Positions 34,001-50,207 of a stretch of 50,207 bases of DNA are shown in pieces (the first letter of the stretch is position 1; each line of letters starts with the position of its first letter). Position numbers and translations under genes: made by a program. The notes beneath the pieces are model-generated. The model made no database searches. It was given only the letters and a program-made list of their open reading frames with translations, and was not told the DNA's origin. Location of the stretch: the IMG/VR virus record IMGVR_UViG_3300030060_005313, positions 75,402-125,608 of that record, one strand, 5' to 3'. The stretch is from a virus.

Positions 34001-37000
34001 GTTGTTAGAAATACATTAAGAACCCATATCTTTCAGAAAGATGTCGTTAAGGCTACTAATGGTATATTGTTCATTTCAGATAGTGGTGTTATATCAGGCT
34101 CAACTGGCACAACAGGTACAGGTACAGTAACATTCGAAGATGATAAGTCTGCAACATTTAATGATGACCAAATACTATTGTTCAAAGATGCACAAGATAA
34201 CGGAACAATAAATGCAGTTAGATTTCAGATAAACGGAAGTCCAATAACAGGCGGTTCAGTTCAGAGTGGTTTTACAAAATATAATGTAGATAATGTTGCT
34301 GGTAATCTAAGTAATCTGAATGTTGGTGGAACTGCAGCAAGAATTAGTGGTGGTACGGTTGCAATTGATGCATCTTCACCTAACAGTCCCTTTGTTGATG
34401 TCAACGCTGCAAGTGGTTCTGCAGTTGTTCGTATGGGTAATCTTGCAGGTATTACATCTCCAAGATTTGGAACTTTATCAAATCAGTTTGGATTGTGGGC
34501 ATCAGGTTCTGCTTATCTTGAAGGTGCAATAAATGCAAAAACTGGTAACATAGGTACTTGGGGTATAGGTAATACTGCAATTAGTAGTTCAGGTGGAATC
34601 ATAACCTTAGATGCAGATGCAAAAAGGATTACTATATCTGATGGTTCTAATGATAGAATTCGTTTGGGTGAAGTTGACGGTGGTACAGTTTATGGTTTGA
34701 AAATATTTGATGGTAGTGGAGTGACAGATAACGATATTCTTGTTGAGTTAGGACAAGGTGGTAATCAGATCGCAGGTTGGACAATTTCTACAGGTGCTAT
34801 AACAAGTCCATCTAGTATAATAACAATCAGCTCAGATAATAAAAGAATTACAATAAATGATGGAAGTAATGATAGAATTTATTTAGGTGAGGTTGATGGT
34901 AGTACAACATATGGTCTGAAGATATTTGATGGAACTGGTACTGCTGATGCAGATAGATTAGTTGAGTTAGGTCAGGGTGATAATATGATTGTGGGATGGC
35001 AATTAGTTCCTGGTAGACTTGAGTTTGATGGAACAAATGGTTCAATTGCATTAGACGCAACAAATCAACAAGTTGCTATATACACCGGCTCAATTAACAC
35101 TGCACAACCAAAAGTGGTTATGGGTAAACTACCAAGAGTAGGTGGTTCATCTTCAGATGATAGATTTGGATTTGCGGTATTTAGTGGTTCTGAAAATGCG
35201 AGTATACTACACGATGATAGATTTTCTGTTTTAATTACAAGGGATAAGGCTAGACTCGCTGGTTGGGATTTAGTACCTGGTGCATTAAGAAGTGGAACTG
35301 TTGCTGACATAAATGGTAATCAGGCAAAAATTGCATTGGGTGTGAATGCAAATCAGACACACACCACACCACAAGCAAACTTGTTCTATGTAAGTGCTTC
35401 TGCTACTCCAACATTCTTTGTTGGTGAAAACTTTTCATTTATTAATAATACTCTAACAGCGGCTGGTTGGGAAATAGCAAGTACAAGTATCAAAAAAGGA
35501 ACTGATGTCGTAATCGATTCAAGTGCAAAATCTATAACACTTGGAAATGGTTCTGTTGCAATAGAACACAATAGTGGTACTCCAATTATAAGAAGTGCTA
35601 CCAACTTCACAACAGGCAATGGTTTCTTTTTATCATCCGCAGGTACTGATAATTTTAGAGTTGGAAATGCATCAGCAGCGAGATTACAATTTGATGGTAC
35701 TAATTTTAAGATTTTCAATTCTTCGAATGCTGAGTTAGTTTCATTAGGAGCCACAAATAAAATTGCAGGTTGGTTCATCACAACTACAACAATACAAAAT
35801 TTTAATTCTGATGGTGGTATTAAAATTGATTCTAGTAATAAGAATATAATCATCTATTCAGATAATGGTTCAACTGAACGTGTAGTGCTTGGTGATGTAA
35901 CTGGTGCAAATAAGTATGGTATTAAAGGAAAGGACGTTAGTGGTAACACAATGTTCGAAATATCAGAAAATCAAAATATAGTTGCAGGGTGGACACTTTC
36001 ACAAACATCAATTTCCAAAAATGATGTCAAATTAGATTCTACAACAAATGCAGAAGGCTTATATGTCAAAAAGACAAGTTTCAGTAGTACAACAGCAGGT
36101 GGTTTTCTAGGATTAGATAGTGGTACTGCTAAGTTTAATGTTGGTGACGCTTCTAAGTTTATAAAATTCGATGGAACTAATTTTACTGTAGATGCCGGTA
36201 ATTTTTCACTAGACTCAAGTGGTAATGTCACAGCAACAAATGCGAGTCTGTCCGGTACTGTTACAGCTGATGCTGGTGCGATAGGTGGATTCACACTAGC
36301 TGCTGGTGGATTGACTGCAACAAATATCAGAATCTCTTCTACACAAGCTTCGATGTCATTAGGTGATAAAGTTAAGATTGTTGGTGGCACGGATAGTTTT
36401 ATTGCAATGGGTAATCAGTTTATAAATGATACCAACTTTAGTAATTTCAATGACGAAAGTGATGTCGGTATTATAATGGGTATGGATGGTAATTCACCAA
36501 AGTTTGAATTAACTGATGGTGGTAATAATCACTTATTATTCGATTCTTCAACAGAAACTTTAAAATTAGCTGCGGGAAAAATACAATTTTCTGCAACTGG
36601 ATTTTCATTGAATGCACAAAGTTCTACAAACACAAATAACAAACTTTCTTTGGGTACGATTACTACAAATACAGATACTACAGGAGCAGGATTTTTTGCA
36701 GATGGTGGGGGTAACTTTAGAATAATTGGTAGTGATAGTACCTCTGTTTTCATAAGTGGTAGTTTGATTGACTTTAGAACAAATCGTATGTTCTTTGGTG
36801 CTACAGGTTCTTCCTTTATAAGTGCATCAAACGGAGTTCTACAGATAAGTTCTTCTAAGTTTCAGTTAAAACCATCCGGTGATGTAATCATGAAGGGTAT
36901 ACTTGATGCAGAATCAGGTGGACAGATTGGTGGATTTACTATTGGTGCTACAACTTTAAATTCTTCAGAAACATCAGGTAACGTACAAGCAATCACTACA

Positions 37001-38488
37001 TTGACAAGTGGAACAAGTCCATCCTTATTTCTGAGGTCTTTTAATAGTAGTACTAACCTCAAATCAAATATAAGGTTAGCAAATTTAGCTGATGACAGAT
37101 TGTTACATGTGATGGATTTCTTCCCAACTAATGTTTCTTCTCAATTCTTAAGGCTAAGAGCGGGTGTCGGTGATAACGAGGGTATACCACCAGATCCAAA
37201 ATCCGATCCAAATGTACCTGGAATGAACTGGTCTTGGGATTATGCGAACGCATATGGTGAACTTCCCTCAAGTTACAGTCCAGGTGATCCCATAAGTTCG
37301 ACCCACATGCCATTTAGTGAAAGTTTTCAGATACTAAATGCATCTGCAAGTAAAGACTCAAAAAATAAAGGGTTAACCATAAAGTACAATGTAACCCATA
37401 AATTTCACGGTACTAAAGACGTAGGAATTCCAGCTGCAGCTGGAGCCGAAACATTTGAAGTTTTGAGAATGGGTAAGATTGAGAATACGGGTGGAACTTT
37501 TGATCCAACACAGGCAGCTGCCACTAGAATTTTTCACTATGGAATAAGTGGTTCTCAACACACTACTGCATCGTTTGGTAGGATTAAAGCAAATGTATTT
37601 GTAGGTGATGGTAGTCAACTCACTGGTGTAAGTGGTGGTGGCGGTGGTTCAATGGATAATTGGGTAATGTCAGATGGTGCGACAACACAGACTGTTGCTG
37701 ATGGTCAGACAGTAACATTTGCAGCAGGTGAGGGTATTGATGTCGCAGTAACTGCAACAGATACGGTTACTTATAGTGCAGAAAACGCTAGTACATCGAA
37801 CAAAGGTGTCGTTGAATTAGCGACCACTTCGGAGACCACAACAGGTACGGATACTGCCAGAGCAGTCACACCCGATGGATTGAAAGATGGCTATCAAGGT
37901 AGTACGAATGTTACAACTTTAGGAACTATATCAACTGGTACTTGGAATGGAACTGCTATAGATACTGCGTACTTAGATACATCTCTAACATCACAACAAA
38001 CTATTTTCAATACAAATCTAAAAATTGGTTCGGCTTACAATGATGAGTACATCGACTTTACATCGGATGGCATGATAATGTTTAAGATAGACAATGCTGA
38101 AGATTTCAGAATGGCAGATGGTGGAACATTCCATGCAAATAATGATGTCATTGCATTTTCATCAACAATATCATCTGATAAAAAATTAAAAACAAATATA
38201 GAGAATATCAACTACGGATTATCTGATGTACTGAAACTAAATGGTAGACAATTTGATTGGAAAAGAGAAGATAGAGGACATGACATAGGATTTATTGCAC
38301 AAGAAGTTGAGGAGGTAATACCAGAACTGGTTAAAGAAGTTGATGGTTTAAATGGAGAGGAATCATTTAAAACAGTAGATTATGCTAAGACAACAGCTGT
38401 TTTGGTTGAGGCAATAAAGGAACAACAAAAGCAAATTGAAGATTTGAAATCTGAAATAAAGGAGTTGAAAGATGGCAGTTCCAGGTAG
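25079..38488 (+). CDS. giant tail fibre with C-terminal Peptidase_S74 chaperone
   Basis: The 4469-residue fibre has a beta-rich attachment region (about 1-650) followed by a long repetitive shaft. Shaft elements include IGGF/IAGW-type strands (about 11 copies), five 19-residue ISGSLG repeats (about 1370-1465), eight NVGIGTTSP-type repeats (about 1740-2755) and SGSSxSTGSFGR-type motifs (five copies). Residues about 4365-4469 form the Peptidase_S74 intramolecular chaperone. SSDKKLKTNI gives the conserved Ser-Asp at the cleavage point, then RQFDWKRE, HDIGFIAQEVEEVIPEL and a terminal coiled coil. This domain drives trimerisation and normally cleaves itself off. The fibre should bind the host surface. 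The leader carries a late-type element but no evident GGAG. Confidence 0.85.
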   Translation: MSIVKKFNPLKNLNQLDMLVDDFNESRHFILTDLPESLPQGRSSFLIETGPFLKEGIELQIDFVDSEGNSIYYEPIDDYLEGTSRRISVEVYSDTGPGVANLIIVGELDSVPTSPGSFSDVEEVPEDWKGIYNVRLTKEIIINPTEINTEPIRFYTQPKITVTEKRLGSLVRTESSSSIVTAFNSIKGNPDQNFEFTVFETEQPKQGSLSEVKDKKTKPKGKTDSIYKMGNQFKNKKGKRKSSIFKRIGHIARSRSPIEYPYSFEITNSDEFTTKDIGGNFIIKTIDSTQYDRDQFENSKLTFPPTFNNYTGSIAELRNNKIALLEKPFTNLNNNGEEVIIPFFGTVELVKQTEPTSSYSTANIISYADVVLSDMRTFSGDVFKAKVMVRSEGSFDDFKTLAEIPVESSELMVDPLSVGLSEHTGYYENQADVNSYWDVTGGTAVFSNSPLLDGVYVSGSVATFENQIKYKLKDAYKFELTKNVDYTVSFNAYTKRGNNSRSLVAIYISGSSFPHNSVPYVDTATNKTLVDDNTYGYRLGVIEVDDQSEKDLGLVVQNFTPNSTGNGVLQFRIVEGGWYFSDISVKPSEDTGFSPSTFTFQKEMPLEFQHKRPDTFEFLVEFYDANDNIADSLAFNTGSVFTGGNVVITGNDNIQSGDMFLGGDTTGSGIHFGGVDSKLPETGEDGAEGSGFIRSIGYQGFVSASAQSGSYGFMIYSGSVLPNSGDNYAGVGLELVGASGSLKFRTKPSIFEVVADAFFVGSRTTQFISGSSGAVEISSSNFHLTPQGNVTMSGIITAEGGNIGDFKIIGGQISGSNMTFNAPRSQLFKTDQGPGSDTTAGFDAKRNEYYIDFTPSGSNDVDGTNYYIKMGPNFMVDKDGILIASGAEFVGTITASAGLIGGFTTDSHSFSSNNIFISGSPLQGSVNDSKYMFISTSNFNVKQSGDVTGSKVLFTGGKLGGFNINNTSIRDVNNTVELSSALPGLKIKDNGGTDRVLVKSGSLSTVGGGTQYIGNKSFEEQLGSLSAGRNFVGSINSWSFSEGGAVNISLTDRNAFVDDDKAVSGRVTLDVVVPAGSGNYSSTNTYQISQVVTASIAAGDTLSFSSVARFSSSFGGRGKDRALQPQYFRLEYSGSGTNGFVPFLPHPNFTASNGYGEYFLGSGQYNSFGASADLPAAAEFIKVVLTGSINDDTGFTIEKPLFIGDKGTVNSDVSGRKFTKQVVGSTTAEHPETEITFDNFSLRSNSRRVEMTQEGLLIYNSEDSFIKMTGAGIEIRGGSGVANFGTAINREAATNDSQVAGTLGAPALQAYQSDPEDIGTTASDGNVGEFAKGNHVHRLTFSTVNSVLAGQTLTGTTFNGLFGSNARIAISGSLGANADVIRSLNRDTISGSLGSNAAVIRTLARAGISGSLGANASVIRTLTRTGISGSLGSNAALIRSLTRVGISGSLSANAIRDLGAGILSGSAGSMNSFNITDGVTSQEIGNGNNITFAAGTGLDVAVSATDTVTYSADVSDFMTNGANNRIITATGTDAMNAESNLTFDGSTLGVTGTISTTSNILLASGANLFFDGGSNSYIKEHSADDIRVVAGGVTAFDFLTTGAGVPATAKLYLDGGGNTHLRESSADNIKVSAGGTDVLDITSVKVSGSSASTASFSRMSLNSVDPMYAYLNVQGDIALGSFTGTNLNRRIGLQRTDGAGWTNTPNINFHVDGNGDGHIKFSVIDSGVAGYADAMVISKDGFVGIGETSPATKLHVKGAHIAGRGLLSLESTDHAILNLRGASANNAGIEFYNATNQKWAIANRADASDKMQIRRGSDDAVAISFDQSINTEFGGNVSGSSTSTGSFGRVFSADDIELKGNAVIFNISDGFVTNAGGAMTIQGTGNVVLDAGAGADEVTLTTTSLTTTVPFTGSSATFSDNVEIISSNASNTKLLIENNHASANALLQLDSSNDRDSVIQLLENGTAKWDIRNDGNDSDKLKISDDGDVRLTLDQSGNVGIGVTSADARLEVKGSDGSNSTENTALIDGNGNHLFTQFNGGKAIFHYGPVEFPYPNGKVSGSSTTTASFGRIQVPKGKYLEFLGGGAGTAEKWQIFNSNSNVFEIKSTAYGGSPITIDATGGGVNVTANLDVGAGLDVTGNITVTGTVDGRDLATDGSKLDGIEANAKNDQTITAGSGLTGGGTGDVTLNIGAGTGIDVAADAISVDVSDFLSNGVDNRVVTATGTDGFAAEDGLTFDGNDLGITRKIFHIGDTDTFIRFTNDDINIQAGGVNFIDITEDTTNEITFNEEGGVINVRMESNNDANLFFLDGTNDRIGIGTGAPQTLLHLVGAGEMIRIENNTNAVGNTFISFYDTSALKGHVGFTGGSTDHLVLYNNENADVRFFTNQNLRMTIAAGGNVGIGETNPQYPLEVVGATGNTVAKFGETFALHAIHNSPVLGFNLFYNTAYKLGEGSSSSYGGYLALSPSTGKFSFATSNQGNAGDTATMTERVTILNNGNVGIGTTSPEHPLQVATSGQTTLSIKAGTNKQANIEFENDGTGYSIGHDINDNGGHNFFIYDRENSRDMLRFSSDGAVFNEGSVNIDFRVESNGDANALFIKGSTDNVGIGTATPSQKLHVVGNAFIDGALTAREFFTDIVSSSIQFTSGSTKFGDTSDDTHKFTGSIFVTSDVAVGTATPTADLHVEASSVTQKLISNSGGTATFTIGRSVDTQAKITSGDTAASDFNIFTGGTRRLTILSSGNVGIGTTSPQAQLHLATASPQILLEDTDVSGLKHTITGGGNAGLEIGVDNNNTGAGYFRISLGGAQRVNITEAGLAEINLGVSGSAASTGSFGRVEASRVRGNAIFVESDLAKISKGDNNTIRFDSPTGNVKIGSQNSSFLHFYTDRGKYFFNKRLIVDEGIFSSYNEDLVLQRAETTKLTLGNTITTSAQDFAIADTKTIGTSTFISGITGDGFRIDDNGSDGTLLEIDNIVVRNTLRTHIFQKDVVKATNGILFISDSGVISGSTGTTGTGTVTFEDDKSATFNDDQILLFKDAQDNGTINAVRFQINGSPITGGSVQSGFTKYNVDNVAGNLSNLNVGGTAARISGGTVAIDASSPNSPFVDVNAASGSAVVRMGNLAGITSPRFGTLSNQFGLWASGSAYLEGAINAKTGNIGTWGIGNTAISSSGGIITLDADAKRITISDGSNDRIRLGEVDGGTVYGLKIFDGSGVTDNDILVELGQGGNQIAGWTISTGAITSPSSIITISSDNKRITINDGSNDRIYLGEVDGSTTYGLKIFDGTGTADADRLVELGQGDNMIVGWQLVPGRLEFDGTNGSIALDATNQQVAIYTGSINTAQPKVVMGKLPRVGGSSSDDRFGFAVFSGSENASILHDDRFSVLITRDKARLAGWDLVPGALRSGTVADINGNQAKIALGVNANQTHTTPQANLFYVSASATPTFFVGENFSFINNTLTAAGWEIASTSIKKGTDVVIDSSAKSITLGNGSVAIEHNSGTPIIRSATNFTTGNGFFLSSAGTDNFRVGNASAARLQFDGTNFKIFNSSNAELVSLGATNKIAGWFITTTTIQNFNSDGGIKIDSSNKNIIIYSDNGSTERVVLGDVTGANKYGIKGKDVSGNTMFEISENQNIVAGWTLSQTSISKNDVKLDSTTNAEGLYVKKTSFSSTTAGGFLGLDSGTAKFNVGDASKFIKFDGTNFTVDAGNFSLDSSGNVTATNASLSGTVTADAGAIGGFTLAAGGLTATNIRISSTQASMSLGDKVKIVGGTDSFIAMGNQFINDTNFSNFNDESDVGIIMGMDGNSPKFELTDGGNNHLLFDSSTETLKLAAGKIQFSATGFSLNAQSSTNTNNKLSLGTITTNTDTTGAGFFADGGGNFRIIGSDSTSVFISGSLIDFRTNRMFFGATGSSFISASNGVLQISSSKFQLKPSGDVIMKGILDAESGGQIGGFTIGATTLNSSETSGNVQAITTLTSGTSPSLFLRSFNSSTNLKSNIRLANLADDRLLHVMDFFPTNVSSQFLRLRAGVGDNEGIPPDPKSDPNVPGMNWSWDYANAYGELPSSYSPGDPISSTHMPFSESFQILNASASKDSKNKGLTIKYNVTHKFHGTKDVGIPAAAGAETFEVLRMGKIENTGGTFDPTQAAATRIFHYGISGSQHTTASFGRIKANVFVGDGSQLTGVSGGGGGSMDNWVMSDGATTQTVADGQTVTFAAGEGIDVAVTATDTVTYSAENASTSNKGVVELATTSETTTGTDTARAVTPDGLKDGYQGSTNVTTLGTISTGTWNGTAIDTAYLDTSLTSQQTIFNTNLKIGSAYNDEYIDFTSDGMIMFKIDNAEDFRMADGGTFHANNDVIAFSSTISSDKKLKTNIENINYGLSDVLKLNGRQFDWKREDRGHDIGFIAQEVEEVIPELVKEVDGLNGEESFKTVDYAKTTAVLVEAIKEQQKQIEDLKSEIKELKDGSSR
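29186..29470 (+). repeat. five tandem 57-nt repeats in the fibre gene
   Basis: Copies begin at 29186, 29243, 29300, 29357 and 29414, exactly 57 nt apart, each encoding a 19-residue unit of the form ISGSLGxNAxVIRxLxRxg. They diverge at silent and conservative positions, and the last copy is degenerate. The repeats lie inside the fibre shaft and stay in frame, so copy-number change would alter fibre length without a frameshift. Confidence 0.85.
30300..33350 (+). repeat. dispersed NVGIGTTSP-type repeats in the fibre shaft
   Basis: Eight related segments encode variants of NVGIGTTSPxxxLHV, near 30303, 31070, 32025, 32274, 32573, 32890, 33095 and 33303. The DNA core aatgtcggcatcgg is exact in four copies (31070, 32274, 32573, 33303). 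The copies at 32573 and 33303 share 29 identical bases. The core is more GC-rich than its surroundings. Confidence 0.8.
34610..35000 (+). repeat. two 73-residue tandem repeats in the fibre shaft
   Basis: The segments beginning near 34622 and 34841 are offset by 219 nt and encode parallel sequences (KRITISDGSNDRIRLGEVDG and KRITINDGSNDRIYLGEVDG). Each is followed by YGLKIFDG, a VELGQG element and a GW-type strand. They look like a recent duplication of one shaft module. Confidence 0.75.
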
Positions 38489-39158: not shown

Positions 39159-42100
39159 ATGGATAAACTTACAGAATTTCTAATCAAACCATTTCTAACC
39201 GAAGGTGTTAGGGATCCAGGTATTTTCAAAGCTATATTTTTAGCAGGAGGACCTGGTAGTGGTAAATCATATGTTGCAAAACAACTATTTGGTATACCCG
39301 AAAAGATAAATGTATCTAAAACAGGTTTAAAAATGGTAAACCAAGACACAGAACTTGAGATGTTACTAACAAAGTATTTCGGAACTGTTGATTTAGATAA
39401 TATGCCTACTGATTTATTTAAACAACTTACAGACCCTAAGTACGATGATTATAGTGGATTGAGAGCATATGCAAAAAGTCTTAGTCAAGAAAGATTGAGA
39501 TTGTATACAGATGGTAGGTTAGGTGTGATAATTGATGGAACTGGACATAAGTTTAAATCTGTTAAGGAGAACAGAAAAAAACTGATGGATATGGGTTATG
39601 ATACCTATATGGTATTTGTAAATACAAGTTTAGAAATCGCAATGAAGAGAAACGAAGAAAGACCTCGTGCATTACCTGCAGATATTGTCCGAAAGAGTTG
39701 GCAAGACGTTCAGAATAATCTGGCTTTCTTTCAAGGATTATTCGGTGCAAATAATTTTCTCATAGTTGATAATAACAAATTCTTATCTGCTAAACAGGCA
39801 GAGAAAAAATTTAAGATGTTAGTCAATCAAGGATTAACCAAGTTTTTAAAGAAACCACCTAAAAATAAAATTGCAAAAGATTGGATTAAAAAACAACAAC
39901 ATATCAAAAAGATTGATTTACCTGACTTAATGAAAAAAGTTAAGATGGCAGAAAGTATTAAGTTACCTGTAGAAATTGGTGATACTATTCTTATGGGTAG
40001 ATTCAAAAATAAAAAGGTGGTTGTAAAGTCAATCGATTACAATGATAATGGAGATTTGTTAATCAATGGTAGACCAGCCTTAAAATTTAGAATTGTGGAA
40101 TCGGTAAACGAATCTGAAGTAAAGACAATATATAGTCTTCTTCAAAAGTATGGGAACTCTGAAAAAGATGCAAAAAATATGATTAGAAAAAATTATAAAA
40201 AAGTATCTAAAAAATTTAGAGGACAATCTGCTAGAGACAAAGCTATGGCATTAATAGGAATTTCTCTTTTAGGTGAGAGTATGACAAAATCTCAGATTAA
40301 AAGTATGAGAGATAAATTTAAAAAAACAGGAGAGTTACCACCTCATTTGAAAAAGTTTGTAAAGGCCAAAAAAGAATTTGAGAAAAAGTTTAAGGTTAAA
40401 AATATTGTTGTACCTGGTTTAGAGTGGATGTCTGATTTAAAGGAGGCACCAAGAGTACCTCGCAAGAAAGGACAACACAGAGGTTCAAAATCGCATTCTG
40501 ATTTATATACAGATGAGAATCCAAAGGGTACAATACATGGATTGAAATTTGCAACTGTAAAAGATGCTCAAGCATCTGTCAGAAAGATAAAGAGTAGTAG
40601 TAGGTCACATGCCCATAAAATACAAGCAGCAGTTGCTATGGAACAGAGAGCCAGAGAGATGGGTAAGACATCACAGGCTGCTGTCTATCGTGCATACATC
40701 AATAAGATGAAGAAGAAAACAAAAGCTAAGAACGAAGAGTTTGGAGCACCTGCTGGTATGTTACCATCGCCAAGTCGTAAAGGTGTAAAGAGGATGAAGA
40801 AAAAAGGTGTCACTTCAGTTCCTTATGGTAGTGGTTACAAAAAGATAAATGAAAACGACAAAACCGAATTGATGAAGTTGTATAATAAAGCTATGAAAAT
40901 GATGCCTGGTTCTCCTAAACAAAAAGAACTACAGAAAAAAATCAAAGTTCTACGAAAAAAATTAGGAATGAATGAAAACAAACAAATCAAAAAAGTCATC
41001 GGTGTATTTGGTGGTAGATTTCAACCTTTTCATCCCGGTCATTTAGCAACATATAAATGGTTAGCATCTAAGGTCGACGAAGCATATATAACAACATCTA
41101 ACATCAAACAACCACCAAGACATCCAATGGACTTCAAAGAAAAAGTAAGACACATGGTGAAGATGGGTATTCCAAAGAATAGAATCATACAAGAAAAAAC
41201 ACCTTATGTCGCTGTAAATCTTTTGAAAAAATTTAATGCTAATACAACAGCTGTAGTATATGCATTCGGACAGAAGGATGCTGGTAGATTAAAAGGTGGT
41301 ACTAAAAAAGATGGTAGTAAAACATACTATCAAGACTTCAATCAGAACAAAAAAAATTTAGAGGGATATGAAACTCATGGTTACATATTGACTGCACCAC
41401 AGCAAGGTAATCTTAGTGGTACAAAGATGAGAGATTTATTGGGAAACCCAAAGTATAGTGATGATGAAAGACAGAAGACATTTAAAAAGACATTCAAATA
41501 TTTTGATAAGGGTATATACAATATGATGACAAATAAATTCAAAAAGTTATTTGAAACCATTGATATATCTGAAGATTTGATAGAAGAATTTTTATTAGAA
41601 TATAGTGATAGTCTAAAGGGTAATTTAGATGATGGCCCATCAACCTATTATCAAACTTTAAATGCTTATGAAAAAACATCCAAAGATTGGTTAGATAGTA
41701 TTTATAAAAAAGAGGGATGGAAGGTTGTTGACTACGCTGTTAGAAATAATATTATAAAACCGGAAGAGAATGTTGCAAAAGCTGTAGAAGACCATACGAG
41801 AAGAAAACCAGGACAAAAACATTACAATTCTGTACCACTTACTTATATGGATCATGGAACACAAGGTGGTTCTAATACAGCTGTAAATAAATATAAAAAA
41901 CATTTGGATGACGTTGTAGGCCCAATTGGTTGGCAGGTGGTTGATTGGATGGGAACATCTGCTGCGATAGATAATATAATAGGTAGTGTATTTGCTGCTG
42001 GTGCTAGTGCGGATATAGATACAAGTTTCTTAGATACCTTAGATTTAGATAATTTAGAAGAAAGAACGTTCTCAAAAGAATGGTGGAAAAAAGAATTGAT

Positions 42101-43337
42101 GTTGGAAGGTGGAGCATATGGACATTTAAATCACCCCTTTGATGATAAAAAATTGACGTTTTCGGATTTTAAGAAACTAATTATTAATACACTACAAGGT
42201 AAACTTGATAAAGAAGGACCGGTTACAGAAAAAACTGATGGGCAGAATATAATGATAAGTTGGAAAAACGACAAACTTATCGCAGCAAGAAACAAAGGAC
42301 ACATCAAAAACTTTGGTGCTAATGCTTTAGATGCTAGTGGTATAAAAAATATGTTTTCCGGTAGAGGTGATATTGAAAAAGCATTTGTTACTGCAATGGA
42401 TGATTTAACTAAAGCATTAAAGGGTTTAAGTAAGAAACAAAAAGACAAAATATTTGGTGAAGGTAAGAGATTTATGTCCTTAGAGGTTATGTATCCTGCT
42501 ACATCAAATGTAATACCTTATGACAAATCTTTACTACAGTTTCATGGAACTATAGAGTATGATGAATTTGGCTCTCCTATTGGTGAGAATAGAGAGAGTG
42601 CTAGGGTATTAGCCGGAATGATAAAACAAATAAATCAAGACATACAAAAAACTTATACAATAACGAAGCCATTTGTTGCTAATCTACCACAGGTAAAGGA
42701 TTTCAGTAAGAGACAGAGTTATTTTTTAGGTAAACTTAAAAAATTACAAAGTGAATATAAGTTAAAAGATACAGATACTTTAGCTGATTATCATCAAGCT
42801 TATTGGATGGAGTATATTTATAATGGTGGAAAACAAACAGATTATAAACACCCTGATAATAGAATTTTGATGAAGTTAACTAAGAGATGGGCGTTCTTTG
42901 ATAAGTCGTATAAGATACCACAAATAAGAAAAGATTTAGAAAAGTATCCAAAGTTTTTAGATTGGGTTTTAAGTACTGATAAAATGAATCATGCTAAACT
43001 ACAAAAAGAACATATTAGAGATTGGGAAGTTTTATTTTTTGAATTGGGTGCGGAGATATTAAAAAATATGAGTGACTTTATTGCAGCAAATCCATCTGAA
43101 GCAGCTCAAAAAATTAGAAAGGATTTGGTAGGTACAATAAACAAAGTTAAAAAGTCTAAAGACCCAAAAGTATTGAACACATTAAAAGTTCAGTTAGATA
43201 GACTAAAAGCCTTAGGTGGACTAAATGCAGTTGTTCCATCGGAAGGGGTTACATTTGTTTATAAAGGTAAACTCTACAAATACACAGGAGCATTCGCACC
43301 AGCAAATCAAATTTTGGGTATGTTAAAATTCGTATAG
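39159..43337 (+). CDS. multi-enzyme protein: P-loop kinase, cytidylyltransferase/NMNAT-like, ligase-like adenylyltransferase
   Basis: The 1392-residue protein contains at least three enzyme-like domains. Residues about 22-225 are a zeta-toxin/AAA_33-type P-loop kinase (GGPGSGKS at 30-37; GVIIDGTGH). Residues about 262-315 form a small beta domain (VEIGDTILMGRFKNKK), and 320-600 are Lys-rich and helical. Residues about 612-790 are a HIGH-type nucleotidyltransferase (GVFGGRFQPFHPGHL; SGTKMRD at 753-759). Residues about 985-1392 resemble an ATP-dependent RNA/DNA ligase-type adenylation fold: EKTDGQN with K1025 as candidate nucleophile, FMSLEVMYP, and EGVTFVYKGKLYKY near the end. The combination suggests RNA repair or NAD-type chemistry. 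Boundaries carry [IL]xE sequences (LTE15, LLGE373, LKE429, MLE983) that resemble prohead-protease sites. Adjacent head genes support packaging, but this is inference. Confidence 0.68.
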   Translation: MDKLTEFLIKPFLTEGVRDPGIFKAIFLAGGPGSGKSYVAKQLFGIPEKINVSKTGLKMVNQDTELEMLLTKYFGTVDLDNMPTDLFKQLTDPKYDDYSGLRAYAKSLSQERLRLYTDGRLGVIIDGTGHKFKSVKENRKKLMDMGYDTYMVFVNTSLEIAMKRNEERPRALPADIVRKSWQDVQNNLAFFQGLFGANNFLIVDNNKFLSAKQAEKKFKMLVNQGLTKFLKKPPKNKIAKDWIKKQQHIKKIDLPDLMKKVKMAESIKLPVEIGDTILMGRFKNKKVVVKSIDYNDNGDLLINGRPALKFRIVESVNESEVKTIYSLLQKYGNSEKDAKNMIRKNYKKVSKKFRGQSARDKAMALIGISLLGESMTKSQIKSMRDKFKKTGELPPHLKKFVKAKKEFEKKFKVKNIVVPGLEWMSDLKEAPRVPRKKGQHRGSKSHSDLYTDENPKGTIHGLKFATVKDAQASVRKIKSSSRSHAHKIQAAVAMEQRAREMGKTSQAAVYRAYINKMKKKTKAKNEEFGAPAGMLPSPSRKGVKRMKKKGVTSVPYGSGYKKINENDKTELMKLYNKAMKMMPGSPKQKELQKKIKVLRKKLGMNENKQIKKVIGVFGGRFQPFHPGHLATYKWLASKVDEAYITTSNIKQPPRHPMDFKEKVRHMVKMGIPKNRIIQEKTPYVAVNLLKKFNANTTAVVYAFGQKDAGRLKGGTKKDGSKTYYQDFNQNKKNLEGYETHGYILTAPQQGNLSGTKMRDLLGNPKYSDDERQKTFKKTFKYFDKGIYNMMTNKFKKLFETIDISEDLIEEFLLEYSDSLKGNLDDGPSTYYQTLNAYEKTSKDWLDSIYKKEGWKVVDYAVRNNIIKPEENVAKAVEDHTRRKPGQKHYNSVPLTYMDHGTQGGSNTAVNKYKKHLDDVVGPIGWQVVDWMGTSAAIDNIIGSVFAAGASADIDTSFLDTLDLDNLEERTFSKEWWKKELMLEGGAYGHLNHPFDDKKLTFSDFKKLIINTLQGKLDKEGPVTEKTDGQNIMISWKNDKLIAARNKGHIKNFGANALDASGIKNMFSGRGDIEKAFVTAMDDLTKALKGLSKKQKDKIFGEGKRFMSLEVMYPATSNVIPYDKSLLQFHGTIEYDEFGSPIGENRESARVLAGMIKQINQDIQKTYTITKPFVANLPQVKDFSKRQSYFLGKLKKLQSEYKLKDTDTLADYHQAYWMEYIYNGGKQTDYKHPDNRILMKLTKRWAFFDKSYKIPQIRKDLEKYPKFLDWVLSTDKMNHAKLQKEHIRDWEVLFFELGAEILKNMSDFIAANPSEAAQKIRKDLVGTINKVKKSKDPKVLNTLKVQLDRLKALGGLNAVVPSEGVTFVYKGKLYKYTGAFAPANQILGMLKFV

Positions 43338-43346
43338 GAGTAGGTT

Positions 43347-43871
43347 ATGGGATATAGTAAAGAATCAGAAAGACAAAATAAAGTTTTAGGTGATTTATTA
43401 TCTGGTAGAGAACCAGACAAAAGAGTTATGATTGGTTACGAGGGTAAAGGAAAAGAAAAGGGTGATGTAATACCAAAGATGACTGAATTAATGCAAGATG
43501 TTAGAATGCCTTTATTTTGTCCTTCTTGTAACAAAGTAATGAAAAAAAGATTAGACGATAAAATGTGGAGACTCTACGAACATTGCTTTGATTGTCAATT
43601 AGATTTTGAACACAAACTTAGACTTGATGGTAAGTATGAAGAGTGGGAAAAACAAAAAGTTAAAGAAAATAAAATATCTTTTTTGAAAGAACAAATACAG
43701 GCAATCAAAGAATGGAAAGATATGAAAGCACCTGAGTGGTACAATAATGTTGGTGTTGCATATCCCGAATTAGAAAAAGAAACTTGGAATGTAGATACAG
43801 AAAAGATAAAGTCTATGGCTGATGAAGCATTAGAGAAATTTGAAGAAACCCTTAATGAATTGGAGAATTAG
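43347..43871 (+). CDS. zinc-ribbon protein of unknown function
   Basis: The 174-residue protein has two CxxC knuckles, FCPSCNKVM (C58, C61) and HCFDCQLDF (C80, C83), about 20 residues apart, forming a likely zinc ribbon. A charged helical C-terminal half follows (KENKISFLKEQIQAIKEWKD). AGGAG lies just before the ATG, 9 nt after the multi-enzyme gene. It precedes the terminase by two small genes, so a packaging or head role is possible. It does not resemble the small terminase gp16, which is helical and lacks zinc knuckles. Function unknown. Confidence 0.6.
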   Translation: MGYSKESERQNKVLGDLLSGREPDKRVMIGYEGKGKEKGDVIPKMTELMQDVRMPLFCPSCNKVMKKRLDDKMWRLYEHCFDCQLDFEHKLRLDGKYEEWEKQKVKENKISFLKEQIQAIKEWKDMKAPEWYNNVGVAYPELEKETWNVDTEKIKSMADEALEKFEETLNELEN

Positions 43872-43873
43872 TT

Positions 43874-44185
43874 ATGAAACTTTGGAAAGTAATATTAGGA
43901 ATCTTTGGACTGGTTGGTGGACTTTTTGCTGCAAAACAGGTTAAAAGTAAGGAAGTGCAAAAACTCAAAAAGGTGATTGAAGAAAACAAAAAAGAAGAGA
44001 AGAAAGTAGAAAAACAAATTAAAGAATTAGAGGAAGCTAAGACTGCATCTAGAAGAGAAATAGGCAACATGAAAAGAAAACTAACTATCTCCAAAAAGAA
44101 AACTAAAAAGATGGAAGAAGTTTATGAAAACGATGAAGTTGAATCTGCCGAAGATTTTTTAAGAAAGTTTGCGAAGAGTAAATAA
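43874..44185 (+). CDS. N-terminally anchored coiled-coil membrane protein (possible inner-membrane spanin)
   Basis: The 103-residue protein starts with one hydrophobic helix (WKVILGIFGLVGGLFAA, about 4-20). It is then entirely charged and coiled-coil-prone (QKLKKVIEENKKEEKKVEKQ, then IKELEEAKTASRREIGNMKR). A short N-terminal anchor with a long helical periplasmic arm is the architecture of an i-spanin such as Rz. That family cannot be recognised by sequence, and no lysin or holin lies beside it. It begins 2 nt after the zinc-ribbon gene and is followed after 1 nt by another membrane-associated protein. Confidence 0.5.
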   Translation: MKLWKVILGIFGLVGGLFAAKQVKSKEVQKLKKVIEENKKEEKKVEKQIKELEEAKTASRREIGNMKRKLTISKKKTKKMEEVYENDEVESAEDFLRKFAKSK

Positions 44186-44186
44186 T

Positions 44187-44543
44187 ATGAAGTATATCTG
44201 GATTTTACTTCTAACACCTTTGTTATCACAAACAACCTTTACAGAGGCGGAAGCTTTAGAAATGATTAAAGCACGTGATGCTCAATGGGAGGGTAAAATT
44301 GAAAAAGCTGATTCTTTGATTTTATCACAAAAAGTATTAATTAGTGATTATGAATCTTTGATAGAAAAATTTGAAGAATCTTCAAATGTTGATTCACTAC
44401 TGATAGAAGCTAAAGATTCTCAGATTAAATTACTGAAAGCTCGTGACGAAATGAATGAAAAGTTGGTAGAGTTGGTTGAACCAAAGTGGTATGAGAATCA
44501 ATATCTTTGGTTGTTTATTGGATTTATTTTAGGGAAGATATAA
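44187..44543 (+). CDS. signal-peptide coiled-coil protein with C-terminal membrane helix
   Basis: From the ATG at 44187 the protein has 118 residues. It opens with a signal-like segment (MKYIWILLLTPLLSQTTF), continues with a charged helical body (SLIEKFEESSNVDSLLIEAK, then DSQIKLLKARDEMNEKLVEL), and ends in a short hydrophobic helix (YLWLFIGFILGKI). A longer reading from TTG 44169 adds six polar residues and is unlikely. The stop overlaps the terminase ATG as TAATG. With the gene before it, it forms a pair of exported coiled-coil proteins that might act in lysis; this is a suggestion from architecture only. Confidence 0.5.
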   Translation: MKYIWILLLTPLLSQTTFTEAEALEMIKARDAQWEGKIEKADSLILSQKVLISDYESLIEKFEESSNVDSLLIEAKDSQIKLLKARDEMNEKLVELVEPKWYENQYLWLFIGFILGKI

Positions 44544-46120
44544 TGAAACCTGCACCATTAAAAGAAGTAATCAAAAAAGAGTATGTAAAGTGTGCAAAGG
44601 ATCCAGCATATTTTCTAAAAAAGTATTGTGTGGTACAACACCCTATGAAGGGTAAAGTTCCTTTTCATCTTTGGGATTTTCAAGAAAAATCATTACAGAC
44701 TTTTGAAGACCATAGGTTCAATATTATATTGAAGGCCCGTCAATTAGGTTTATCGACATTGACTGCTGGGTATTCCTTGTGGATGATGACGTTTGGACAG
44801 GACAAAAATATATTAGTAATTGCTACTAAGCAAGATACTGCAAAAAATTTAGTGACTAAAGTGAGAGTAATGCACGCTAATTTACCCTCTTGGTTGAAGC
44901 AGAATTGTGTTGAGGATAACAAACTATCTTTGAGATACAAAAATGGTTCACAAATTAAAGCGGTCTCAAGCGGAGAAGATTCTGGTCGTTCTGAGGCTCT
45001 TTCATTATTAATATTGGATGAGGCCGCTTTCATTGATAAGATTGAACCAATATGGGCAGCTGCTTCACAGACACTATCTACTGGTGGACAATGTATAGCG
45101 TTATCCACTCCGAATGGTGTGGGTAATTGGTTTCACAAAACTTGGGTAGGTGCAGAAGATGGAACAAACGATTGGAACTTTATTAGATTACATTGGAATT
45201 TGCATCCTGAAAGAAATGATGAGTGGAGAGGTGAGCAAGATAAACTATTAGGTCCTTCATTAGCTGCACAAGAGTGTGATTGTGACTTTATAACCTCTGG
45301 CCAAACCGTAGTTGATGGTGTGATATTAGAAGAGTATAAACAAACACATACCAATAATCCTTTAGAGAAAAGAGGAATCGATAGTAACTTTTGGGTATGG
45401 CAACCTGCTAACTATACAAAAGATTACATCGTATCTGCCGATGTGAGTAGAGGTGATGGAACAGATTATTCTGCTTTTCATGTGATGGATGTAGAAACTA
45501 TGGAGCAGGTAGCAGAATATAAAGGTAAGTTATCAACAAAAGATTTCGGTAATATGTTGGTTAACACTGCTACAGAATATAACAATGCCTTATTAGTTAT
45601 TGAGAATAACAATATTGGTTGGGCAGCAATACAACAAGTAATCGATAGGGGATATGAGAACCTATTTTACACAAGTAAAGATTTACAATATGTAGATACA
45701 GAAAAACAAATTAATAATAGATATAGAACACAAGACCGAAATATGGTGCCTGGTTTTTCTATGACAATGAAAACCAGACCTTTGGTAATCGCGAAATTAG
45801 AGGAATATTTTAGAGAAAAGTCAGTAATTGTTCGTTCAAATCGATTAATTGATGAACTTTTTGTATTTATATATAATAACAATAAAGCCGAAGCTATGCA
45901 GGGGTATAATGACGATTTAGTTATGAGTTTTGCTATCTGTCTTTGGGTAAGGGATACTGCACTAAGATTGAAACAAGAAGGTATAGACTTACAGAAAAAA
46001 GCACTAAGTGGTGTAGCAACACAAATGTTACCTCAGACACCAACGGAAAAGAAAGACACTTGGGAAATGGAAGTGGGTCCGAATGGTGAAAAAGAAAGAA
46101 TAGACTGGCTATTAGGATAA
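44543..46120 (+). CDS. 17: large terminase subunit (gp17-like)
   Basis: From the ATG at 44543 (TAATG overlap with the previous stop) the protein has 525 residues. An upstream in-frame GTG-type reading from 44507 adds 12 residues that lie within the neighbouring gene's membrane helix and is less likely. The ATPase domain shows IILKARQLGLST (Walker A variant, about 61-72) and LLILDEAAFI (Walker B, about 155-164). The RNase-H-like nuclease domain shows IVSADVSRGDGTDYSAF (about 295-311), LVIENNNIG and YNDDLVMSFAI. It is the motor and headful nuclease that pumps DNA through the portal. The portal gene follows after 10 nt. Assignment is firm. Confidence 0.93.
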   Translation: MKPAPLKEVIKKEYVKCAKDPAYFLKKYCVVQHPMKGKVPFHLWDFQEKSLQTFEDHRFNIILKARQLGLSTLTAGYSLWMMTFGQDKNILVIATKQDTAKNLVTKVRVMHANLPSWLKQNCVEDNKLSLRYKNGSQIKAVSSGEDSGRSEALSLLILDEAAFIDKIEPIWAAASQTLSTGGQCIALSTPNGVGNWFHKTWVGAEDGTNDWNFIRLHWNLHPERNDEWRGEQDKLLGPSLAAQECDCDFITSGQTVVDGVILEEYKQTHTNNPLEKRGIDSNFWVWQPANYTKDYIVSADVSRGDGTDYSAFHVMDVETMEQVAEYKGKLSTKDFGNMLVNTATEYNNALLVIENNNIGWAAIQQVIDRGYENLFYTSKDLQYVDTEKQINNRYRTQDRNMVPGFSMTMKTRPLVIAKLEEYFREKSVIVRSNRLIDELFVFIYNNNKAEAMQGYNDDLVMSFAICLWVRDTALRLKQEGIDLQKKALSGVATQMLPQTPTEKKDTWEMEVGPNGEKERIDWLLG

Positions 46121-46130
46121 GGAATAAATT

Positions 46131-47948
46131 ATGGCTGATACAACATTTTTAGGAAGATTAAAAAGATTATTTTCTACTAACGCTATAGTTAGAAACGTTG
46201 GTGGTAGAAAATTAAAAGTTGTAGATACAGGAAAGCTACAATCAGTAGCAAAAAACAGTTTGGTTGATAGATACCAAAAACTATATTCGAATATGCAAAG
46301 TTACGGATATAATGAACTACTACAAGTTCAACAGCTAAGATTAGGTTTGTTCAGAGACTACGAATCTATGGATTCTGATGCAATTATTGCATCTGCATTA
46401 GATGTGTATTCTGATGAGTCTACTATGAAGAATGAGTACGGTAAAGTTCTTTCTATCAATACAACGAATGATAATATACATGATATATTACATAACCTCT
46501 TTTACGATATTATAAATATAGAGTTTAATCTTTGGCCGTGGATTCGTAATATGAATAAGTATGGTGATTTCTTTCTCAAATTAGAAGTCAATGAAAAGTA
46601 TGGTGTGACAAATGTTATGCCTTTATCACCATATGATACTGCTAGATATGAAGGACATGATCCTGAAAATCCTAATTTAGTTCAGTTCGAATATATCCCA
46701 CAATCAGCTGGTGGGAGTCACGGTGCAAGACATACCAAAAGAGACAGAGAAATCACTATGTTTGAAAATTATGAGATAGCACATTTTAGATTATTATCAG
46801 ATTCTAACTATGTTCCTTATGGTCGTTCTATATTAGAAGGTGGTAGAAAGGTATGGAAACAAATGAGTCTTATGGAAGACGCTATGTTGATACATCGTAT
46901 AATGAGAGCACCTGAAAAAAGAGTATTCAAATTAGATATTGGTAACATACCACCAGCAGAAGTTGATAACTTTATGCAACAGGCTATGAACAAAATGAAG
47001 AAGGCACCTGTAATGGACGAGAAGACTGGTGAGTACAATCTAAGATACAACATACAGAATCTAACGGAGGATTTCTTTTTACCTGTTCGTGGTGGAGATA
47101 GTGGAACAAATATAGATACTCTACAAGGACTTACTTACGAAGCAGTTGATGACATTGAGTATCTCAAAAATAAATTGTTGGCTTCATTACATGTACCTAA
47201 AGCATTTTTGGGCTACGAGGAAGGTTTAGGTTCTAAAGCTACTTTGGCTGCAGAGGATGTGAGATTTGCCCGAACAATTGAAAGAATACAAAGAATTGTG
47301 ACAAGTGAGTTATCAAAAATAGCTGTAGTTCATTTGTATGCACAAGGGTTTAGAGACCAAGACCTAGTTAACTTTGAATTAAATTTGACTAATCCATCGA
47401 CAATATATGAGCAAGAAAAGATAGAATTGTGGAACAATAAAACATCTCTTGCAGATTCTATGTTAAGAGATGGGTTGGTATCATCAGAATGGGTTTATAA
47501 AAATGTATTCAAATTCTCAGACGAGGAAATAAAACAAATGGATGAACAAATAGTATTTGACTATAAGACTAAATTCAGAAGACAACAGATTGAGGCTGAA
47601 GGTAATGACCCTGCAAAGAGTGGACAATCGCAAGGTACACCATCTGATTTAGCTATGGGAAGAAGTGGCCATGAACTAGATGATGAGGGTGGTTCACCTA
47701 AAGGTGGTTTTGAAGGTGCAGGAAGACCTAAAGAAGCAAATAAGTATAGTAAAGATAGTGGTGCTAGGGGTAGAGATCCGTTAGGAGCACATGATATGAA
47801 AAAGGCCTACAGCACACAATCATTATCAAAATATGAAAATGTACTAAAACATTTGGGAAGTACAGGAAAATCATTATTAAGTGAGAGTAGTGAGGTTGAA
47901 GAGGAGTATAAATCTGAAGTAAACTCTCTTATTACTAATAAAAATTGA
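46131..47948 (+). CDS. 20: portal vertex protein (gp20-like)
   Basis: The 605-residue protein matches T4-type portals: LFRDYESMDSDAIIASALDV, YSDEST, PWIRNMNKYGDFFLKLEV, then MEDAMLIHRIMRAPEKRVFK and the clip/stem region KAFLGYEEGLGSKATLA with QDEDVRF-like continuation (AAEDVRFARTIERIQRI). The dodecamer forms the unique head vertex, the DNA channel and the nucleus for prohead assembly. The C-terminal 110 residues are Gly-rich and polar (SPKGGFEGAGRPKEANKY). It directly follows gp17, as in many marine T4-like genomes, and a late-type element follows it. Confidence 0.9.
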   Translation: MADTTFLGRLKRLFSTNAIVRNVGGRKLKVVDTGKLQSVAKNSLVDRYQKLYSNMQSYGYNELLQVQQLRLGLFRDYESMDSDAIIASALDVYSDESTMKNEYGKVLSINTTNDNIHDILHNLFYDIINIEFNLWPWIRNMNKYGDFFLKLEVNEKYGVTNVMPLSPYDTARYEGHDPENPNLVQFEYIPQSAGGSHGARHTKRDREITMFENYEIAHFRLLSDSNYVPYGRSILEGGRKVWKQMSLMEDAMLIHRIMRAPEKRVFKLDIGNIPPAEVDNFMQQAMNKMKKAPVMDEKTGEYNLRYNIQNLTEDFFLPVRGGDSGTNIDTLQGLTYEAVDDIEYLKNKLLASLHVPKAFLGYEEGLGSKATLAAEDVRFARTIERIQRIVTSELSKIAVVHLYAQGFRDQDLVNFELNLTNPSTIYEQEKIELWNNKTSLADSMLRDGLVSSEWVYKNVFKFSDEEIKQMDEQIVFDYKTKFRRQQIEAEGNDPAKSGQSQGTPSDLAMGRSGHELDDEGGSPKGGFEGAGRPKEANKYSKDSGARGRDPLGAHDMKKAYSTQSLSKYENVLKHLGSTGKSLLSESSEVEEEYKSEVNSLITNKN

Positions 47949-47957
47949 TGATACTTA

Positions 47958-47968
47958 TATTTATATAT
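47958..47968 (+). promoter_or_regulatory. candidate late promoter, TATTTATATAT
   Basis: The 53-nt gap after the portal gene holds TTATATTTATATATGA (47955-47970), identical over 16 nt to the site before 16597. It is bracketed by tactt (47952-47956) and aagta (47970-47974). The ATG at 48002 is 33 nt downstream, with ggagttcgtaa between. Confidence 0.62.
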
Positions 47969-48001
47969 GAAGTACTATACAAAAACGATTGGAGTTCGTA
48001 A

Positions 48002-49279: not shown

Positions 49280-49465
49280 ATGCCATTTGAAGATAAAAAG
49301 AAGTCCTATATGGACACGCTTTTTAGTATTTCGACTCTGTTGAAAAGATGGCAGGTTGAAATATCTAAAAAGGATATAGATAAGAATTATATGATTAGAA
49401 GACTTAACCAATGGATAGAACAATTGGAAAGTCTGAAAACAGAAATAATGATGGAGAAAGACTAA
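49280..49465 (+). CDS. small helical protein in the head operon
   Basis: The 61-residue protein (FSISTLLKRWQVEISKKDID; WIEQLESLKTEIMMEKD) is predicted wholly helical, with coiled-coil character. It lies 11 nt after the previous gene, with GAGG just before the ATG, and its stop overlaps the next start as TAATG. The size and setting recall the small prohead core proteins of T4, but no family is recognised. Confidence 0.5.
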   Translation: MPFEDKKKSYMDTLFSISTLLKRWQVEISKKDIDKNYMIRRLNQWIEQLESLKTEIMMEKD

Positions 49466-50207
49466 TGATTTCACTACTTGAAATTGCACAAAGTATTAAT
49501 GAAGTTGATGACGACAAAATCATCAAGTATAAAGATAAGGATGGCGAGTCTCAGGAGATGACTGCAGGTGCTGCCAAAAAGATGGATAAAGACCATCCAG
49601 CAAAGCAAGCTTGGGATAAGATGAGTGCGCAAGAAAAAGGTGCTGATGATAGTGAAAAAGATGATGGTGGTAAGTTAGGTGGTGGTGATTTCGATAGAGA
49701 TGGTGGTGATGAGCCAGATATGGATTCTGATGATGGTGATGAAGAGAAATCAGCAGAAAGTGAAAATGAAAAGATAATTGGTGATTTAGAAAAAATGGAT
49801 TTACCAGATGGATTTAATTTGGATACACCTGATTCTGAAATCGATGGTGGGAGATACGGAGTAATTACAGGTAAAGATGATGATCCAGATAACGAATTGA
49901 GTGTCAATGCTATTACAGGTGAAGGTGGTAAAGTTGAATATGTAATAAATATTGGTAGTGGGGGTACTCCAATTTATTTTGATAGTAAAGAAGAAGCGAT
50001 GGAAGCTAGTAAAAAACTTTTAGATGATGCCACAATCAGAGATGCTATGAATGGTGAAAGTGATCCTGCTGGTGTTACTTTAGCAGACTTAGATGATCAT
50101 GCGAAAAATGTATTGAAATCTGATGATGATGAAAGTAAACCAATACCTTCAGCACCAATGGAAACCATCACAATCAATGGACAAAAATACAGAGCAATCA
50201 AAGAAGA
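49465..50207 (+). CDS. acidic prohead core/scaffold-like protein (partial, runs off right edge)
   Basis: An ATG at 49465, preceded by GGAG (49453-49456) and overlapping the upstream stop, opens a frame with no stop to the window end (247 complete codons). It starts MISLLEIAQSINEVDDDKII, then AGAAKKMDKDHPAKQAWDKM, followed by a highly acidic Asp/Gly-rich region (GGDEPDMDSDDGDEEK). Near the edge is METITINGQKYRAIKE. The KMDKDHPAKQA block and the acidic low-complexity body are features I associate with scaffold or core proteins of marine T4-like phages. The prohead protease and major capsid genes would be expected just downstream, outside the window. Confidence 0.55.
   Translation, partial: MISLLEIAQSINEVDDDKIIKYKDKDGESQEMTAGAAKKMDKDHPAKQAWDKMSAQEKGADDSEKDDGGKLGGGDFDRDGGDEPDMDSDDGDEEKSAESENEKIIGDLEKMDLPDGFNLDTPDSEIDGGRYGVITGKDDDPDNELSVNAITGEGGKVEYVINIGSGGTPIYFDSKEEAMEASKKLLDDATIRDAMNGESDPAGVTLADLDDHAKNVLKSDDDESKPIPSAPMETITINGQKYRAIKE

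Follow-up and report, generated by a model that had tools for sequence, protein, structure and literature searches.

The DNA analysed here (hereafter the window; 50,207 nucleotides) is the final 50 kb of a 125,608-base virus record of IMG/VR (IMGVR_UViG_3300030060_005313), and the gene of interest lies at 39159-43337 on the (+) strand, where a single unbroken open reading frame (ORF) codes for a protein of 1392 amino acids. An earlier note on this DNA had described that uninterrupted frame, beside the terminase, as a P-loop kinase, a HIGH-type nucleotidyltransferase (NTase) and a ligase-like adenylyltransferase joined in one multifunctional enzyme. The frame and its coordinates were confirmed, and because homologues of 1,100-1,700 amino acids are likewise open in dozens of independent contigs, it is no assembly fusion. 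The motifs on which the three domains had been recognised are also in place, namely GGPGSGKS (residues 30-37), GRFQPFHPGH (619-628) and SGTKMRD (753-759), together with EKTDGQN (with K1025), FMSLEVMYP and EGVTF of the ligase-like part. The three-domain observation holds because sequence profiles, a model of the ligase and the invariant motif residues agree; the single enzyme is probably wrong, since the modules are gained, lost, reordered or found as separate genes, with candidate cleavage sites between them.

Along the chain (all coordinates on the (+) strand; a slash marks a predicted cut), residues 1-15 (39159..39203) form the leader MDKLTEFLIKPFLTE/, a predicted capsid targeting sequence that is near-constant ahead of differing cargoes, and residues 16-250 (39204..39908) form a P-loop kinase module resembling PSTK and Pnkp. 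A series of small modules, delimited by module mapping in relatives, follows: A (residues 266-314, 39954..40100, flanked by MAE/ and IVE/), H (319-373, 40113..40277, ending LGE/), X (374-429, 40278..40445, ending LKE/), C (527-565, 40737..40853, ending INE/) and D (566-606, 40854..40976, ending MNE/). Between X and C lies module B (430-526, 40446..40736, ending KNE/), which is 77-80% identical to part of proteins of the cyanophages P-TIM68, Bellamy, S-SM2 and SynMITS9220M01; the S-SM2 copy sits in a 708-residue multi-module protein encoded between gp16 and gp17. The HIGH-superfamily, NMNAT-like NTase occupies residues 607-799 (40977..41555, ending LFE/) and is followed by a poorly conserved region of low confidence (800-983, 41556..42107; predicted local distance difference test score, pLDDT, mostly <50) with sites at E814 and MLE983/, and finally by the RNA-ligase-fold covalent nucleotidyltransferase (984-1392, 42108..43334), which carries K1025 in EKTDGQN.

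Two or more biochemically disparate domains are therefore combined in this chain, and the relatives are mosaics of such domains. The NTase-ligase core is constant among them, while the arm preceding it differs in length and content: 73 architectures were counted among 118 arms, many of which are cut short by a contig end, and modules have been dropped, gained or rearranged. The kinase is a separate gene in some relatives, and in L238, the most distant one (26% identity), the order is inverted, with the ligase before the NTase. Relatives also add CCA-adding-enzyme and HD modules to the same chain; in L155, CCA, HD, NTase and ligase share a single chain, and a kinase gene precedes it. Cultured relatives with such genes are Microcystis phage Mel-JY01 (NTase-ligase WWT39297), pelagiphage HTVC008M (kinase AGE60463, NTase AGE60464) and cyanophage S-SM2 (SSM2_109). 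Two further modules were seen in passing. One, in L116, L117, L120, L125, L173, L174, L179 and L212, resembles an Ntn-hydrolase (C45-like) by eye and has no Pfam match. The other, of ~280 residues (U280), occurs in L072, L073, L154, L172 and L127 and is a leader-bearing stand-alone gene at two loci; by eye it was suspected to be an ADP-ribosyltransferase, an idea dropped when no support was found.

Sequence profiles confirmed both the kinase and the HIGH-type NTase, the kinase being assigned by profiles alone. Its Pfam matches are AAA_33 (5e-8) and Zeta_toxin (5e-7), its nearest PDB profile match is L-seryl-tRNA(Sec) kinase (1.4e-6), and next come 4mde/4gp6/4jst at 0.01, deposited as 'Metallophosphoesterase' but known as the Pnkp kinase domain of C. 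thermocellum. Among PHROGs it matches phrog_505, polynucleotide kinase (2e-6), and no phosphatase domain was found in the same protein. These profile searches (hits: PSTK, AAA_33, zeta and Pnkp) returned no NadR or nicotinamide riboside (NR) kinase match, so the likeness to NadR proposed earlier is not supported. The NTase matches CTP_transf_like in Pfam (3.4e-9), and its model matches NMNAT/PPAT structures with a Foldseek probability of 1.00. GRFQPF..H and SGTxxR are invariant in 37 NTase sequences, so that HIGH motif, SxTxxR and fold are all present, although the first His of HxGH is not invariant and is lost in part of the family (FGPHH).

The ligase module gave no significant match in Pfam, NCBIfam, PHROG or PDB-sequence profile searches, nor a sequence-profile match to the named RNA ligase families Rnl1, Rnl2, Rnl3 and Trl1. 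A joint NTase-ligase model yielded weak ligase matches, and for this reason the ligase was modelled by itself (AlphaFold2 with 58 homologues), which gave a pLDDT of 90.1 and a predicted template modelling score of 0.85. The top 28 PDB matches to this model are all RNA/DNA ligase chains, the best being the fungal tRNA ligase Trl1 with RNA (8rbj, probability 0.99, E 1.7e-3), with archaeal Rnl3 (2vug), T4 Rnl1 (9do4/2c5u) and T4 Rnl2 (2hvr) also among the top folds. The 58 sequences all keep E-K-x-D-G-Q, R, E, F-H, E-G and K, so the covalent nucleotidyltransferase motifs KxDG, R, E, EG and K accompany the ligase NTase fold. The suspected ligase-like adenylyltransferase is thus borne out by a predicted structure with retained catalytic residues; neither a missing fold nor a loss of these residues across homologues was found. 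As modelled, the module is a family unnamed by Pfam, NCBIfam or PHROGs.

Whether the kinase, module A, module B or the NTase follows, the arm nearly always starts M-x-K-L-T-x-[FWY]-L-x-x-P-F-L-x-E, and [LIVMF]xE stands at the expected place in 45 of 52 distinct leaders. The window's own leader is short, N-terminal and ends FLTE/, a form of L/I-x-E. T4 ipII and ipIII start MKTYQEFIAE/A, and the gp23 propeptide holds SFLTE/A (taken from the T4 record); the window leader resembles such a capsid targeting sequence, and a targeting role is predicted on this likeness. Stand-alone kinases have leaders of their own (MIKLKDLIQLDE/G, MIKLMDLLNE/G and MIKLIDLLNE/G), stand-alone U280 modules start MVKLKDLINE/, and in relatives the genes between the prohead protease and the major capsid protein (MCP) carry leaders such as MIKLKDILTE/. 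A pattern search over all ORFs of the window's own genome gave 7 leaders vs 1.8 in shuffles (maximum 7), which is weakly above expectation, and so the leader evidence rests on the homologues. Three successive genes elsewhere in that genome bear a leader of the same kind (MIKLK-LLxE), and L086 5450-10237 (record ~43450-48240) holds another group of multi-module proteins, whose sites read VNE/LNE/VDE; by their sequences, this cluster and its leader genes likely code for more capsid cargo.

The T4 protease gp21 cuts after L/I-x-E (PMC9026906); for the window protein the hydrophobic position was widened to L/I/V/M, i.e., [LIVM]xE. This motif stands at most inter-module junctions (LTE15, MAE265, IVE314/VNE318, LGE373, LKE429, INE565, MNE606, LFE799, LLE814 and MLE983), and seven more matches fall within folded domains or the leader. 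Flanked by variable residues, E799 and E814 recur in all 37 sequences compared and E983 in 33 of the 37. Breakpoints of module shuffling were then compared with the sites, using 61 dereplicated arms, ungapped alignments, breakpoints with at least 5 supporting alignments and 1000 rotations. In 55 cases a breakpoint coincided exactly with [LIVM]xE, vs 6.5 expected (8.5-fold), the maximum in the 1000 rotations being 15, while controls with D, N, S or Q in place of E were at or below expectation. An earlier version of the statistic based on gapped alignments gave a noisier 4-fold excess.

The gene is followed by the terminase large subunit (TerL; 44507..46120 (+), phrog_2 5.6e-51), the portal protein (46131..47948 (+), phrog_213 6.5e-71) and the start of the prohead-core genes (49411..50207 (+)), cut by the contig end. 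The noted placement beside the terminase extends to the family, TerL lying downstream in 158 of the 159 loci whose sequence extends far enough. In close relatives, the next gene along codes for the S77 prohead protease; its family, PF03420, was detected in 16 of the 19 related records examined, the window's contig being one of the three that lack it. Among relatives, genes with leaders and multi-module genes containing V/L-N-E sites come after the protease, the predicted propeptide of the MCP ends LIKE/A, and the protease itself has QINE/A. The homologue set consists of viral contigs, two pattern scans having given at least 570 and at least 583 confirmed relatives. A search of genome contigs for a cellular origin gave 8 matches in all: 7 on small contigs of metagenome-assembled genomes (MAGs), which are probably viral, and L238 (CP070664.1, a WOR-3 MAG), whose gene lies between N gaps of the MAG chromosome and probably comes from a viral contig that scaffolding placed there. 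The data suggest a marine, T4-like phage from a widespread group of such phages. Upstream of the gene, window positions 25079-38488 hold one ORF of 4469 amino acids. Elsewhere the record encodes a transfer-messenger RNA (tmRNA; RF00023, 81 bits, ARAGORN tag GDYQPSYSYAA) with tRNAs for Ala, Cys and Gly at ~71000-73025 (L087 14000-16023), four or five successive type IV prepilin-like genes (KGFTLIELI...) at ~53600-55510 (L086 15603-17510), and a small ferredoxin-like protein (DEDNCTGCQACVPFCPVDC) at L086 1641-1964.

Homologues give an indirect link between the family and virions. T4-GC190, a putative cytidylyltransferase (HIGH nucleotidyltransferase), was detected in purified virions of cyanophage S-SM1 by Sullivan et al. 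(PMC3037559), and its S-ShM2 orthologue starts MKKFSTFISE/A. In PHROG 395, T4-GC190 is grouped with the NTases of Mel-JY01, L238 and two jumbo phages; of these, Mel-JY01 and one jumbo phage could be aligned to the NTase-ligase of the window. The direct similarity of T4-GC190 to the window NTase is weak (2e-4). In Atu_ph07 the kinase lies inside a multi-module protein with the leader MKWNDLNE/A, which is gp53 (AUZ94865) by accession order. Virions of that phage yielded 29 proteins from coding sequences 31-76 (PMC6102473), a range that includes gp53, though the figure is not specific to gp53.

Taken together, these sequence features lead us to favour, with somewhat better than even confidence, a head-targeted, protease-cut polyprotein whose enzymes would enter the next cell with the DNA and repair RNA, most likely tRNA. 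The gene would be expressed late as part of the head operon, and the N-terminal leader would direct the chain into the prohead core, where a T4-type (S77) prohead protease would cut after hydrophobic-x-E between the modules and free separate enzymes inside the capsid. Once ejected along with the DNA into a new host cell, the PSTK/Pnkp-like kinase and the RNA-ligase-fold enzyme could heal and seal RNA before phage gene expression, the target most likely being tRNA cut by host defence nucleases. In relatives, a CCA-adding enzyme and an HD phosphohydrolase would join in healing and sealing. The CCA module matches CCA-adding enzymes at 3.5e-52, and the HD module is nearest to the HD domain of CCA enzymes (4.6e-10). 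In E. coli, the HD domain of the CCA enzyme acts as a 2',3'-cyclic phosphodiesterase, and by analogy a CCA-type HD domain would supply end healing. As to which RNA and which defence are concerned, the sequences favour tRNA or translation repair over NAD (nicotinamide adenine dinucleotide) metabolism, because the kinase is nearest to a tRNA(Sec) kinase, the relatives hold CCA and HD modules, and three tRNAs and a tmRNA are encoded in the genome. Between the two functions suggested in the earlier note, RNA repair is hence preferable, given also the Trl1/T4 Rnl1-like ligase, and NAD synthesis is not favoured; a NadR-like pathway as the main function was rejected, since the kinase profile does not fit. 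The NMNAT-like module, a near-constant partner of the ligase, may still supply a nucleotide cofactor (NAD) or, alternatively, modify RNA ends. That a widespread group of T4-like marine phages pre-loads its capsids with a complete tRNA repair kit is to us an evenly balanced proposition. The kit would consist of a 5' kinase, a ligase of a new family and a nucleotidyltransferase, in some phages with a CCA-adding enzyme and an HD phosphohydrolase as well; the prohead protease would cut it out of a shuffled polyprotein, and it would reach the cell ahead of any phage transcription to counter tRNA-cleaving defences.

Several observations weigh against the polyprotein and its proposed role. Module B ends KNE, outside the motif, and many sites are V/M-x-E, not the strict L/I-x-E of T4. 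With lysine as the control residue ([LIVM]xK), breakpoints also show a mild excess (57 vs 24), which is ascribed to lysine-rich C-termini of the modules. PF03420 is absent from the window's contig because the contig ends shortly after the portal, ahead of the protease position in relatives, and the protease is inferred from those relatives. The Foldseek E-values of the ligase are ~1e-3 and its family stands outside the known ligase families, the window protein lacks a 3'-end healing domain, some orthologues have no kinase, and a function search with the U280 module gave no assignable fold or role.

Alternatively, the chain could stay uncut and work as a multifunctional, Trl1-like RNA repair enzyme that is produced late in infection and acts in the cell that makes it, the LxE sites being flexible linkers. 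It would follow the logic of Trl1, with kinase and ligase in one chain, and Trl1 is also the best fold match. But the leader is constant ahead of unrelated cargo, separate kinase genes have leaders, the glutamate is kept in every one of the 37 sequences within otherwise variable linkers, the breakpoints lie on the sites, the gene sits in the head operon, and the ligase/NTase order is inverted in L238, all of which make such an enzyme unlikely. The chain could instead be an injected NAD-restoring system, in which an NMNAT and a nucleoside kinase counter NAD-depleting defences and the ligase does something else. The GRFQPFHPGH and SGTxxR motifs and the NMNAT-family matches agree with it, and NAD systems are known from jumbo phages (PMC7824862). 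Yet the kinase matches PSTK, Pnkp and zeta and not an NR kinase, and it is dispensable where the ligase-NTase pair is retained; the presence of CCA and HD modules suggests tRNA as the target, and part of the family has replaced the first His of HxGH (FGPHH), so we hold an NAD system to be quite improbable. We give similarly little credence to a capsid-delivered set (kinase and DNA-type ligase) for repairing ends or nicks of the entering genome: the covalent nucleotidyltransferase fold is common to DNA ligases and T4 protects its injected DNA ends with gp2 (per annotation), but the best structural neighbours are RNA ligases and CCA-adding modules have no known DNA role.

Among known systems, the capsid-delivered polyprotein that we favour is closest in layout to the polyvalent proteins that Iyer et al. 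2017 (PMC5512222) described from phages and conjugative elements. These also hold many disparate enzyme domains per chain, are mosaic and are encoded with head genes, are predicted to be packaged and injected, and are likened by the authors to polyproteins; the portal-terminase context that marks them is present here at 158 of 159 loci. They are reported to be released by embedded peptidase domains, whereas the window protein showed no peptidase domain and its sites fit a separate prohead protease. The set of RNA ligase, CCA and PSTK-like modules of the window family was not met in the portion of PMC5512222 available, which states that 2H domains of polyvalent proteins are never seen with RNA ligases. 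The internal head proteins and Alt of T4 (PMC9026906, PMC3012670) share the short leader ending L/I-x-E, the S77 protease (predicted for the window phage from its relatives) and diverse cargo, and one of them, IPI, has a known counter-defence role; however, each T4 gene carries one cargo, while the genes of the window family carry many modules with a site between. NadR and NMNAT share the HIGH nucleotidyltransferase with GRFQPFHxGH and SGTxxR, but the window kinase is not NR kinase-like and the NTase is fused to a ligase.

T4 Pnkp/Rnl1 and the RNA repair systems of jumbo phages are described as genes expressed after infection. They share with the window family a kinase, an ATP-type RNA ligase and a CCA enzyme, and in jumbo phages such repair was proposed as an answer to tRNA-cleaving defence (PMC7824862). 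They differ in that the window enzymes are predicted to be pre-packaged and that their ligase family lies outside known ligase profiles. Fungal Trl1 also has kinase and ligase in one chain and is the best structural match of the ligase module, but no sequence-level similarity to it was detected, the window protein has no cyclic phosphodiesterase domain, and its kinase belongs to another subgroup.

A literature search (polyprotein with prohead protease; packaged RNA ligase), with most subscription journals outside its coverage, found no description of the combination. The RNA-ligase-fold family, with at least several hundred relatives, carries no name in Pfam, NCBIfam or PHROGs, and the constant leader together with the grammar of sites offers a rule for spotting other capsid-delivered counter-defence cargo in uncultured phages. 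Precedents exist for the parts, i.e., polyvalent proteins, T4 internal proteins with their capsid targeting, and phage RNA repair; what is seemingly new is a capsid loaded in advance with RNA-repair cargo, made as a polyprotein for the prohead protease. If true, a bacterial virus would use a polyprotein cut by its capsid protease to deliver enzymes, and phage RNA repair would shift from being expressed after attack to being carried in.

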